Part shown: in pieces, positions 11,647 to 16,841 of the stretch
How positions within the stretch are numbered: position 1 is the stretch's first letter
Layout of the letters: every line of letters begins with the position of its first letter
DNA from: a virus
IMG/VR virus record: IMGVR_UViG_3300009408_000089
Coordinates: 1 to 43,574 of that record
Length of the DNA: 43,574 nucleotides
Strand: one strand, 5' to 3'
Notes under the pieces: generated by a model
What the model saw: only the letters and a program-made list of their open reading frames with translations
Told to the model about the DNA's origin: nothing
Databases searched by the model: none
Translations under genes and position numbers: made by a program

Positions 11647-11992
11647 GGGGGTGAAAGGTTTCGACGGAGATTCGAAGAAACATATAACGCACGTTGGTTT
11701 GCCTAGAGCCACAATTCTAGACGCGCATGTAAATGCAAACGATACAACACTGTTAGCGCAAGCAGCGTAAACACCAGCTCTTCTAGGAGCCTACATCTAG
11801 AAGAAGCTGGTCATTAGGTAGGACGGATTGAGAAGTGTATGGTTACTTGACTTTTCAATGGAATTTATCTAGCAACAAGGATACAGAAGAAGGTGGCCAT
11901 TCTCCTTTCTGTTGACATATAAAAATGGAAAACGTGTAACGTAAAGTTGGATAGAGTTTTCGGACGGGGTTTCGATACCCCCACCTCCACCA
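11647..11992 (+). ncRNA. ssrA: Phage-encoded tmRNA
   Basis: The 5' end GGGGGTG pairs with CACCTCC (11982-11988) to form the 7-bp acceptor stem, followed by ACCA. The conserved 5' GAAAGGTTTCGACGGAG element and a 3' T-arm-like GGGGTTTCGATACCCC are present. The tag frame starts at the resume codon GCA 11735 and reads A-N-D-T-T-L-L-A-Q-A-A, stop TAA 11768-11770. The total of 346 nt is close to the E. coli molecule. Start ANDT is typical, but the tag ends AQAA rather than the usual ALAA. It would rescue stalled ribosomes and mark products for proteolysis. The T stem is slightly irregular. Confidence 0.93.
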
Positions 11993-12194: not shown

Positions 12195-12269
12195 TGCGGA
12201 GTAGAGAAATGGTATCTCACTAGCCCCATAAGCTAGAGGCAGTCGGTCCGATTCCGACCTCCGCAACCA
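12195..12269 (+). tRNA. tRNA with anticodon CAU (Met or lysidine-type Ile)
   Basis: Cloverleaf: acceptor TGCGGAG with CTCCGCA; D-arm GAGA/TCTC with GG in the loop; anticodon stem CTAGC/GCTAG with loop CCCATAA (anticodon CAT); T-arm GTCGG/CCGAC with loop TCCGATT; CCA encoded. The U1-A72 pair and lack of three G-C pairs in the anticodon stem argue against initiator tRNA. It is either elongator Met or an Ile tRNA whose C34 is modified; the bases alone do not settle this. Confidence 0.92.
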
Positions 12270-14119: not shown

Positions 14120-14147
14120 TTGACTTTTGATTTAACTTCTTTATAAT
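14120..14147 (+). promoter_or_regulatory. Sigma70-type promoter
   Basis: TTGACT 14120-14125, TATAAT 14142-14147, spacer 16. The block GACTTCTTTATAATCCGG is almost repeated in the promoter at 32993, so these are copies of one phage promoter. It reads into 14166 and the cassette region. Confidence 0.75.
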
Positions 14148-14546: not shown

Positions 14547-14604
14547 AAAACGCCTTACATAACCGGCAACGCCTTTTGTTGTCCGCTTGATGTGATTGTT
14601 ATCT
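14547..14604. repeat. attC-like site A
   Basis: Layout AAAAC-GCCTTAC-ATAACCGG-CAAC-loop-GTTG-T-CCGCTTGAT-...-GTTAT (14598-14602). The inner arms pair with one extra base on the right arm, as in attC sites where extrahelical bases set strand choice. Outer boxes are AAC and GTT. Close copy of sites C and E, but its inner left box has AACCGG instead of AAGCGG. Confidence 0.65.
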
Positions 14605-14781
14605 TCGATTTTAACTGAGGAAGAGCAAGCGAGATTCACCCCTTCCGAGATTCGGGAAATGTGTATGCTGGCTTGCATTAACTACGAAATGCGACACATA
14701 CGCGAACACACTATCGACCCAAGAGTTGATGAAGCGTTCCGGGTGTTCGACGATTTCATAAGTAAACCACGAAGAAGATAA
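14596..14781 (+). CDS. Cassette ORF 1, hypothetical
   Basis: 61 codons from TTG 14596, which lies inside site A; no clear ribosome site, and the true start may be slightly downstream. Charged helical protein (ILTEEEQARF to FISKPRRR). Its TAA stop is part of the ATAAC box of site B, the usual position of a cassette stop. GC content is clearly above that of the flanking phage genes. Confidence 0.45.
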   Translation: MLSSILTEEEQARFTPSEIREMCMLACINYEMRHIREHTIDPRVDEAFRVFDDFISKPRRR

Positions 14782-14838
14782 CGGCTATTTAATAAGCGGG
14801 CGCGGCTTTATGCGCTCCGTTTGATTTAATTGTTATAT
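14778..14838. repeat. attC-like site B
   Basis: ATAAC (14778-14782), ATAAGCGG-GCGC, short loop, GCGC-T-CCGTTTGAT, GTTAT (14832-14836). Same architecture as the other sites, with a bulged T/A on the right arm, but the stem tip is GCGC/GCGC instead of CAAC/GTTG. Variation in the stem with conserved ends is characteristic of attC sites. Confidence 0.65.
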
Positions 14839-14855
14839 TTTTAAAGGAGAGTATT

Positions 14856-15062
14856 ATGAGATATAAGATTACTGCATTCCAAGTTTGTTTGCTTGGCTGG
14901 ATTGCAAGAAAGATTGTTGTCCAGAGCCATATGCACAAGAGCAATATAATTAAGTACTATGAAATTATTAATGACGCTGCTCACAATGAATTTACAGAGG
15001 ACAATGAACCAACACTCAATGAGTTTCTAACAGAATGTCATGCTGAGTCATTGAGAATATAA
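14856..15062 (+). CDS. Cassette ORF 2, hypothetical
   Basis: 68 residues, AAGGAGAG upstream of ATG. Basic helical N-terminus with a hydrophobic face, acidic C-terminus. TAA stop overlaps the ATAAC box of site C. No family recognised. Confidence 0.55.
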   Translation: MRYKITAFQVCLLGWIARKIVVQSHMHKSNIIKYYEIINDAAHNEFTEDNEPTLNEFLTECHAESLRI

Positions 15063-15116
15063 CGACCTACATAAGCGGCAACGCTTTTTGTTGTCCGATT
15101 GATGTTTTTGTTATGT
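15059..15116. repeat. attC-like site C
   Basis: ATAAC (15059-15063), CTACATAAGCGG-CAAC, loop GCTTTTT, GTTG-T-CCGATTGAT, GTTAT (15110-15114). Same spacing as sites A and E. Confidence 0.7.
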
Positions 15117-15153
15117 GATTTTAGGAGGATATATGACTGAACAATGAGCGAGA
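15117..15153 (+). other. Miniature cassette with a leader-like micro-ORF
   Basis: Only about 37 bases separate sites C and D. They contain a perfect AGGAGG and ATG 15133, which encodes just M-T-E-Q before TGA 15145-15147. That stop overlaps a second ATG (15144) whose 21-codon frame runs through site D to TGA 15207-15209. Either a decayed cassette or a tiny translated element. Confidence 0.4.
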
Positions 15154-15207
15154 ATAACAACAAAAATTCGCTAACGAGTGCCGTTCCGCTTGAACGCCTT
15201 GTTATGT
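15154..15207. repeat. attC-like site D (divergent)
   Basis: ATAAC (15154-15158) and GTTAT (15201-15205) flank an imperfect dyad: TTC-GC-T-AACG, loop AGTGC, CGTT-CC-GC-TT-GAA. Ends match the other sites; inner arms are diverged with bulges. The CCGCTTGAAC right arm is close to that of classical attC sites. Confidence 0.5.
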
Positions 15208-15226
15208 GAAAACTTGAGAGGAAAAT

Positions 15227-15499
15227 ATGGACGAAATAATATGCCCCGCAACAGAAATTAACCTTGGCATGTCGAATTTTGATAACGAAATAGAAGACGG
15301 TTTTCTTGAAGCCTTGCAAGGAGAGCCAGGTGAAGTTTTTGGGCGGCACTCTGGCTGGAACTTTAACGGACGTGTCTGGCTTGAAAACGGTAAGTTTCAT
15401 GAAGAAGTGTGGGTCTATGGTTCACCAGTAGCAATCTATTCAGGAGATAGCTTACGGGAACTTATGGACGAAGTTAACAATGAACATGGGTGGGACTGA
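15227..15499 (+). CDS. Cassette ORF 3, small acidic hypothetical protein
   Basis: 90 residues, GAGAGGA upstream. Acidic, with a conserved-looking core GRHSGWNFNGRVWLENGKFHEEVWVYGSPV, here split: W-N-F-N-G-R-V-W, then FHEEVWVY, and an end LRELMDEVN. I have an impression that such small proteins occur in environmental gene cassettes, but the function is not known. GC-richer than phage genes. Flanked by sites D and E. Confidence 0.6.
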   Translation: MDEIICPATEINLGMSNFDNEIEDGFLEALQGEPGEVFGRHSGWNFNGRVWLENGKFHEEVWVYGSPVAIYSGDSLRELMDEVNNEHGWD

Positions 15500-15502
15500 C
15501 AC

Positions 15503-15559
15503 ATAACGCCTTACATAAGCGGCAACGTTTTTGTTGTCCGCTTGATGGTTTTGTTATCT
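15503..15559. repeat. attC-like site E
   Basis: ATAAC (15503-15507), CTTACATAAGCGG-CAAC, GTTTTT loop, GTTG-T-CCGCTTGAT, GTTAT (15553-15557). The best-formed copy: twelve paired bases in the inner stem with one extrahelical base. Confidence 0.7.
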
Positions 15560-15581
15560 TTTTATATTATGGGAGTTCATA

Positions 15582-15875
15582 ATGGGTTACACATGGTATT
15601 ATTCTGACGTGGCAAACGAAGAAGTGGGATCAATGATATGCACAAAATGCAAGCACCCGATTCACAAAGGGGAATATAGGTACAGAGAGACAGAGGAAGC
15701 ATACCTTGCACAGCACCGTCATTGTTCGGCAGACGACACAGGGTGGAATACCAAGGACAAGAAAAGCGAGGCTGACCGAAAGAGATTAAAGGCTTACAAG
15801 TCTTTCAGGGACACATGGCGCGAGAGTCTTTTAGATGATGCCATCGAGGAAATGGAAGACGATTTGTTGTTGTAA
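15582..15875 (+). CDS. Cassette ORF 4, small zinc-finger-like protein
   Basis: 97 residues beginning MGYTWYYSDVANEEVGSM. CTKC is followed about 30 residues later by HRHC, a treble-clef-like zinc pattern. The C-terminal half is Lys/Asp/Glu-rich and helical, ending in an acidic tail. GGGAG upstream of ATG. GC-rich compared with neighbours; flanked by site E and a half-site. Confidence 0.6.
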   Translation: MGYTWYYSDVANEEVGSMICTKCKHPIHKGEYRYRETEEAYLAQHRHCSADDTGWNTKDKKSEADRKRLKAYKSFRDTWRESLLDDAIEEMEDDLLL

Positions 15876-15876
15876 G

Positions 15877-15905
15877 ATAACATTACAATTGGATGGAAAT
15901 GTTAC
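15877..15905. repeat. Possible truncated attC half-site F
   Basis: ATAAC (15877-15881) and GTTAC (15901-15905) flank a small dyad AACATT/AATGTT. The inner AAGCGG/CCGCTT arms are missing, so this looks like the broken end of the array where it joins phage DNA. It could also be chance. Confidence 0.3.
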
Positions 15906-15931: not shown

Positions 15932-15959
15932 TTGACATATCGCAAACTTAACATATACT
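15932..15959 (+). promoter_or_regulatory. Sigma70-type promoter for gene 32
   Basis: TTGACA 15932-15937, TATACT 15954-15959, spacer 16; leader of about 30 bases with AGGAGAAG before ATG 15999. Confidence 0.75.
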
Positions 15960-15998: not shown

Positions 15999-16841
15999 AT
16001 GACAAGAAAGAAAATGAAGTTTGATTTATCAGCATTACGCAAACGAGTTGAGGCTGAGAAAAGTGGAGGTGGAGTTGCATACTTTTCTCCAAATAAATTG
16101 CCAGATGATACTACTGTTAATATTCGATTTCTGCCTATTCCTGATGGTACACACTGGAGGATTGAACATTTACATCATAAAATTCCTGGCGCAGAAAATC
16201 AAAAGATTTATACCTGTCCAACAATGGAAGGTAAGCCATGTCCATTTTGCGAACGTGCACAGAAGTATTATAATGAAGGAAATGATGACATGGGATCATT
16301 GTATTGGCGCAAGAAGCGGTACTATGCTAATGTAATTATTCGCGAGAATGCTGCGATTGCAAATTTCTCTGAATTGAAGATGCCAGTATTATGGCAATAT
16401 GGTCCAAAGATTGAAGCAAAGTTGGAAGCTGGTCTGATGGATGATGATATTGGTGTATTCTTTGATCCAGATGAAGGATTGGACTTCAAGCTCCATAAGA
16501 CAACAGTGAAGAACTGGGCAAATTATGATCAATCATCATTTGCACGTAAAACATCAACAGCATGTTCATCGGATAAGGAATTCGATCAGATTACTGATGA
16601 TATGCACGATTTGAATGGAAAAATCACCCCAGCTTTGAGTTATGAGGAAATGAAAGCTTTGATGGATGGTGCTGCTCCAACAATAATATCTCCTTCAGCT
16701 CCTACATCAAATGAACGCGCAGATAAACCTGAAGATGATAAACCTGCAACATTACCTGATACTGATTCTTCAGAATCCGTTGATGAAGCAGCAGAAATTG
16801 AGAAATTACTTGCGGAGATTGAAAGCAAACAATCCTCATAA
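15999..16841 (+). CDS. 32: Single-stranded DNA-binding protein gp32
   Basis: 280 residues (T4 gp32 has 301). Basic N-terminal segment for cooperative binding, then the OB-fold core with YFSPNKLPDD and the zinc site CPTMEGKPCPFC, then YWRKKRYYANV. The last 60 residues are highly acidic, the tail that recruits replication and recombination proteins. It coats ssDNA for gp43, gp41 and UvsX. It lies just after the cassette array and just before uvsX. Confidence 0.92.
   Translation: MTRKKMKFDLSALRKRVEAEKSGGGVAYFSPNKLPDDTTVNIRFLPIPDGTHWRIEHLHHKIPGAENQKIYTCPTMEGKPCPFCERAQKYYNEGNDDMGSLYWRKKRYYANVIIRENAAIANFSELKMPVLWQYGPKIEAKLEAGLMDDDIGVFFDPDEGLDFKLHKTTVKNWANYDQSSFARKTSTACSSDKEFDQITDDMHDLNGKITPALSYEEMKALMDGAAPTIISPSAPTSNERADKPEDDKPATLPDTDSSESVDEAAEIEKLLAEIESKQSS

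Follow-up and report, generated by a model that had tools for sequence, protein, structure and literature searches.

A CALIN, taken here as at least two attC sites with no integrase nearby, lies beside gene 32 of a T4-like phage, and the genes of its cassettes run against the direction of their attC sites. The array consists of five attC sites and four ORF-bearing cassettes, and the record encodes no integrase. We consider it probable that the cassettes come from a pool circulating among phages, in which genes are inverted relative to attC, and that this phage represents an integrase-less outpost of that pool. CALINs of virulent phages, and their recombination by IntI1, have been published (Qi et al., 2023, PMC9892861); the polarity inversion is the new point.

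The array and its phage backbone

The window analyzed is the whole of IMG/VR record IMGVR_UViG_3300009408_000089, which is linear, 43,574 bases long, and probably a fragment of a phage genome. Its plus strand carries 72 of the 76 called genes. The T4-like setting given in the preliminary description was borne out by the replication genes, which encode gp32 (PF08804), UvsX, a DnaB-like helicase, an SbcC/D-like nuclease, a DNA polymerase, and a clamp loader. Relatives of gp32 and UvsX in the phage collection are only about 30–40% identical at the protein level, and related-locus searches with gp32 and with UvsX found no close relatives of the phage among viral contigs. The window also encodes a phage-borne tmRNA at 11647–11992 (Rfam RF00023, 112 bits; tag ANDTTLLAQAA), followed 3' by a tRNA-Met at 12195–12269. 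These were the only two matches in an Rfam scan of the window, and Rfam contains no attC family.

Repeats of 50–60 bases, each comprising a left ATAAC box, a hairpin, and a right GTTAT box, occupy the region between a promoter at 14120 and gene 32 (Table 1). Since gene 32 has its own near-consensus promoter directly beyond the array, the array is flanked by two promoters. The 124-aa ORF that precedes the first site is either a phage backbone gene or a former cassette.

Table 1. Features of the cassette array and its flanks in the 43,574-base window.
Feature	Coordinates	Strand	Remarks
Sigma-70-like promoter, TTGACT-16-TATAAT	14120–14147	+	11/12 positions; consensus match only; 5' of first gene and array
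ORF, 124 aa	14166–14540	+	phrog_22149, function unknown; between promoter and array
attC1, terminal site	14549–14602	-	16.9 bits, E 0.035 (14549–14600); repeat D2/D4; plus-strand fold weak
Cassette A ORF, 61 aa	14596–14781	+	TTG start within box, no clear RBS; TAA stop in ATAAC
attC2	14776–14838	-	14.1 bits, E 0.17
Cassette B ORF, 68 aa	14856–15062	+	good RBS; TAA stop in ATAAC
attC3	15057–15116	-	24.7 bits, E 4.5e-4
Cassette C, empty	15117–15168	+	RBS and 4-codon reading frame only
attC4, truncated	15169–15207	-	15.5 bits, E 0.08; 31 model positions skipped; one inner arm missing
Cassette D ORF, 90 aa	15227–15499	+	good RBS; no phage match
attC5, best site	15501–15559	-	37.7 bits, E 3e-7
Cassette E ORF, 97 aa	15582–15875	+	good RBS; 36% identity to Caulobacter phage protein
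Lone R-type box, AGATAAC (GTTATCT on minus)	15876–15882	-	right array edge; inverted-repeat pair I5; role putative
Gene 32 sigma-70-like promoter, TTGACA-16-TATACT	15932–15959	+	near-consensus; outside array
gp32, single-strand DNA binding protein	15999–16841	+	PF08804, E 8.7e-12; right-hand backbone gene
Bits and E values of attC sites are those of the covariance model.

Sites were detected with a covariance model trained on 25 bacterial integron attC cores. These cores adjoin TIGR02249 integrases and were excised through a structural search that did not use the window, which was also left out of the training. At E ≤ 10 in 43.6 kb, the model returned five matches only, all on the minus strand and all within 14549–15559. 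The attC-like elements previously proposed for 14547–15905 were thereby confirmed as five sites with scores above background, the best reaching E 3e-7. In a motif search allowing up to three mismatches, two copies were found in the window and none in 100 shuffles; an exact attC core had zero copies in IMG/VR. A TIGR02249 search of the 43.6-kb record, itself a fragment, detected no integron integrase, as had been reported, and hence no intI that would accompany attI in a complete integron.

The elements carry the ATAAC/GTTAT boxes and the extrahelical base ascribed to them earlier; however, site 4 is truncated, and the base lies in the arm that is unexpected given the direction of the genes. 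Sites 2, 3, and 5 have intact R''/L''/L'/R' inverted repeats with 9-nt spacing, and single-strand folding of these three sites gave an attC hairpin in which one base is extrahelical and the outer boxes pair. The R' box of attC1 is degenerate (GTTTTC on the minus strand). It is very improbable that the elements are a phage repeat family (a terminator, promoter, or homing element) that has converged on the appearance of attC. Their regular spacing between genes and AT-rich tips would suit such a family, but the bacteria-trained attC model ranks exactly these five elements best in 43.6 kb, no Rfam family matches them, and like sites adjoin phage integron integrases with integron geometry in 133 of 133 cases (see below).

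The cassette ORFs end in or next to the left box, as first described: the TAA stops at 14779–14781 and 15060–15062 lie inside ATAAC, and the stops at 15497–15499 and 15873–15875 directly precede a box. ORFs B, D, and E start approximately 20 bases past the right box behind good ribosome binding sites. The alternation of elements with small ORFs noted earlier holds for four ORFs, but cassette C is empty, and the ORF of cassette A is probably 5'-truncated. Similarly, the ORFs had been called less AT-rich than the phage genes, which is true of A, D, and E (45, 44, and 46% GC, respectively, where the remaining plus-strand genes average 32.8%, sd 3.8) but not of B, which at 35% is ordinary for plus-strand genes. 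The product of cassette E is 36% identical to a protein of the giant Caulobacter phages CcrPW and CcrColossus, its sole database relative, and has no relative in viral contigs; no phage relative was found for the cassette D protein.

With site 4 broken, the R' box of attC1 poor, one cassette empty, and one ORF seemingly truncated, the array may be decaying. We nevertheless regard it as unlikely that it is the relic of a degrading former phage integron, the elements of which are kept only as intergenic hairpins that terminate or process mRNA. Damage to two of the five sites, the empty cassette, and the overlap of terminator-like matches with three sites are compatible with such a relic. However, a proper T run is missing from most of these matches, and attC2, attC3, and attC5 still have both R boxes and the extrahelical base and fold with a strand bias, which is more than a terminator needs.

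Polarity of genes and attC sites in the window, in bacteria, and in phages

The attC strand that recombines is set by an extra base in L'' that has no partner in L' (PMC2727003). In the window, all intact sites carry this base in the right arm, i.e., AAGCGG-CAAC...GTTG-T-CCGCTT. Both the extrahelical base and the model matches are minus-strand, whereas the ORFs are plus-strand; hence, the direction of all five attC sites is opposite to that of the cassette genes. As each cassette is ordered attC then gene when read, the recombinogenic (bottom) strand of attC is also the coding strand of the genes. The plus strand is therefore the one expected to fold better, which was the case at sites 2, 3, and 5 but not at site 1. 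For attC2, the folding energy was -10.4 kcal/mol on the plus strand versus -7.1 kcal/mol on the minus strand. The plus-strand fold of attC3 pairs the R boxes (z -3.2), and that of attC5 is an attC hairpin in which the R boxes pair and a single base is extrahelical (z -3.0). The strand assigned to the ORFs is supported by their good ribosome binding sites, by the plus-strand coding of the window as a whole, and by the phage homologue of cassette E.

This polarity was calibrated on bacterial integrons. Across 20 bacterial arrays, the side of the extrahelical base and the location of intI agreed for 35 of 35 structural matches, and the strand of the covariance-model match likewise tracks intI in bacterial arrays. 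The right-arm base was also considered as a quirk of this one phage; we rejected this explanation, given that the bacterial control and published phages showed the base to mark polarity.

We compared gene direction between bacterial integrons and phage contigs by an identical procedure, in which a cassette ORF was called between neighbouring model matches. Phage contigs were collected with attC-core patterns that are blind to gene direction; the first, a relaxed pattern, gave 38 viral contigs and the second, a different one, gave 105 stretches. In the bacterial controls, which represent one phylum, 71 cassettes ran in the same direction as attC and 13 were reversed; by array (two sets), 27 were canonical, one was reversed, and three were undecided. 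The sole reversed control array (L098) has few attC sites and may be a prophage or a miscall. Phage cassettes showed the opposite tendency, with 49 reversed and 12 in the same direction for the first pattern set, and 143 and 54, respectively, for the second. Pooled across IMG/VR phage contigs, 192 cassettes were reversed and 66 were not (Fisher versus bacteria, 5e-22, near-copy contigs included); the approximately one quarter not called reversed partly reflects ORF-caller errors in GC-rich DNA. Antisense ORFs in GC-rich contigs were rejected as the source of the reversed calls, since bacterial arrays of similar GC content gave the opposite result with the same caller and since reversal is also obvious in AT-rich DNA, at the phage loci L250 and L252.

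Three published phage CALINs, i.e., those of MW202573, Pseudoalteromonas H101 (PH101), and Polaribacter P12002L, are also reversed, whereas that of TJE1 is canonical. The attC nearest in sequence to that of the window, from a Cycloclasticus prophage, is reversed as well. Neighbours of this near-identical attC in the prophage (L004, 389–2163) are a phage integrase and the phage Dam methylase.

These comparisons bear on the host's integron, which the preliminary description had suggested as a possible source. That suggestion was not supported: the window genes run against attC as they do in phages, and the relative of cassette E is a phage protein. In its fuller form, i.e., that cassettes of a host chromosomal integron were captured through illegitimate recombination and kept as passengers, we consider it quite unlikely. 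Capture of this kind has been proposed for other phage CALINs, which IntI1 can recombine (PMC9892861); moreover, the cassette ORFs are GC-richer than the phage, and attC4 resembles common bacterial attC halves. Yet host genes, which are read from Pc, follow attC, all four window ORFs oppose it as in most phage contigs, and the array DNA matched neither phages nor plasmids.

Phage contigs with their own integron integrase

A profile search with ten IntIs identified 191 IMG/VR stretches that encode relatives, 80 of which were kept (L249–L328). The 191 viral relatives far exceed the few phage intI genes of PMC9892861. In the 45 IMG/VR contigs that contain both intI and attC, all 133 attC matches lie upstream of intI (133/133) and all are on the strand pointing away from it (133/133). 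Cassette genes run toward intI in 38 of these contigs, away from it in four, and in mixed directions in three, which differs strongly from the bacterial arrays (27 canonical, one reversed; Fisher p 4e-14). A terminase gene is present in 25 of 43 intI-bearing contigs, counting two families alone, and also in contigs G027, G280, and G262. Mis-binned bacterial DNA was therefore rejected as an explanation for the terminase-bearing reversed contigs.

Among the contigs of the first pattern set, G027, G025, G280, and G262 carry an integron integrase, with array genes co-directional with intI and attC opposite. The ORF caller scored G027 as mixed, yet its Lar cassette is on the intI strand. In G280 (L230, 7478–15863), intI runs off the contig end and has about a dozen attC sites on its upstream side. 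The integrase of G262 (L229, 12910–13867) is split between two frames, which suggests a frameshift or misassembly; it adjoins a phage integrase and an excisionase-like gene.

Phages with an intI of their own have, on one strand throughout, a promoter followed by the cassettes, the attI side, and intI. The window fits this inverted-cassette group, in that its attC sites point away from the presumed insertion end, its genes point toward it, and the genes follow the phage coding strand; it looks like the gene order of the intI-bearing phages minus intI. Phage-type IntI is absent from the window fragment and was found in at least 38 other phage contigs.

In a maximum-likelihood tree, in which the bacterial IntIs were sampled from one phylum only, most viral IntIs form one exclusively viral clade (support 100). 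Inclusion of 20 of the closest bacterial IntIs from the phylum left this clade intact (34 viral rows, 100/98). The tree also contains other, deeper viral groups. The integrases of L257 and L289 are placed with bacterial sequences; both contigs have canonical polarity and are probably bacterial DNA. For L290 and L327, the IntIs fall in viral clades and the arrays were called canonical; these are either gene miscalls or true exceptions.

DNA stretches common to otherwise unrelated array contigs tend to be bounded by attC sites, with 91 of 248 alignment ends falling at attC versus 26.6 expected. For instance, L168 and L260 share 370 bases, and L016 and L020 share 651 bases, at 94% identity in both cases.

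Comparison with known integrons and a model for inverted cassettes

Sedentary chromosomal integrons of Pseudomonadota share with the phage arrays their R and L boxes, the extrahelical base in L'', and the polarity of attC relative to intI. They differ in gene direction: genes of the chromosomal integrons run along attC and away from intI, whereas phage genes run against attC and toward intI. The 'reverse' integron of Treponema (PMC3607928, PMC4909258) resembles the phage integrons in that intI and the cassette genes are co-directional. However, the reading order in Treponema is intI, attI, and then the cassettes, whereas phage cassettes precede attI and intI and point toward them. Interpretation of the window as a Treponema-type reverse integron was rejected, given that attC is upstream of intI in 133 of 133 matches at the phage loci and the genes are inverted relative to attC.

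Among phages, complete integrons are known from the temperate phages Vibrio anguillarum p16, E. coli P1, and Shewanella M16-3, where they are pieces of host chromosomal or class 1 integrons (PMC9892861). Like the loci described here, these place intI and cassettes within a phage genome; unlike them, the phage IntIs in our set belong to exclusively viral clades and are accompanied by inverted cassettes. The published phage CALINs (PMC9892861) resemble the window in combining attC clusters and small ORFs without an integrase. None of those compared is from a T4-like phage with the array beside gene 32. That study calls the TJE1 and PH101 arrays typical of bacterial arrays, and the inversion of genes relative to attC goes unmentioned. 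A search of the open-access literature, which excludes subscription papers and preprints, turned up neither inverted phage cassettes nor an IntI lineage of viruses. The earlier proposal of a lytic phage as a carrier of mobile cassettes had already been published (PMC9892861).

The inversion is best accommodated by a model in which phage transcription reads the cassettes toward intI. A newcomer would enter at the attI side, becoming the last gene of the operon, and to be read there its gene must be inverted relative to attC. Such an arrangement would account for the circulation of reversed cassettes among phages, whether or not these carry intI. In the window, the array would be read as an operon from the 14120 promoter toward gene 32, each cassette consisting of attC then gene in the reading direction. 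Recombination, which in attC sites takes place at G^TT of R', would fall in the boxes on the left. The right edge would serve as the insertion end, where the lone box at 15876–15882 beside gene 32 may represent the attI-like side, and attC1 with its poor R' box would be the far end of the array. An integron integrase supplied in trans by a resident or co-infecting phage, or by the host, would fold and recombine the window sites. We infer that the sites are active, that the array grew by attC recombination, and that cassettes have been exchanged in this very phage.

A broader proposition is that phages possess an integron system of their own, comprising exclusively viral IntIs and a separate pool of inverted cassettes from which intI-less phages draw in trans, with the phage and host pools kept functionally apart because a cassette moved across pools would be silent. 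We see the case for and against this proposition as evenly balanced. Integrons have so far been approached as a device of bacteria, with phage CALINs interpreted as spilled host cassettes; if the proposition is true, phages with their own integrase lineage and inverted cassettes have their own gene-swapping platform. Polarity would then be a simple test separating phage-pool from host cassettes, with cassettes that cross between pools predicted to be antisense. For attC biology, the phage arrays would be a naturally occurring example of genes whose coding strand is also the recombinogenic one.

Among the cargo of the arrays inspected are DNA methyltransferases and Dam, as well as Lar (in G027), a restriction-alleviation protein. 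Should the phage system exist as proposed, the arrays would thus be a way to swap anti-restriction genes. The cassettes of G280 encode several DNA methyltransferases (PF01555, PF05063), and L027, L029, and L042 have MT-A70 methylase cassettes in common, at 43–70% identity.
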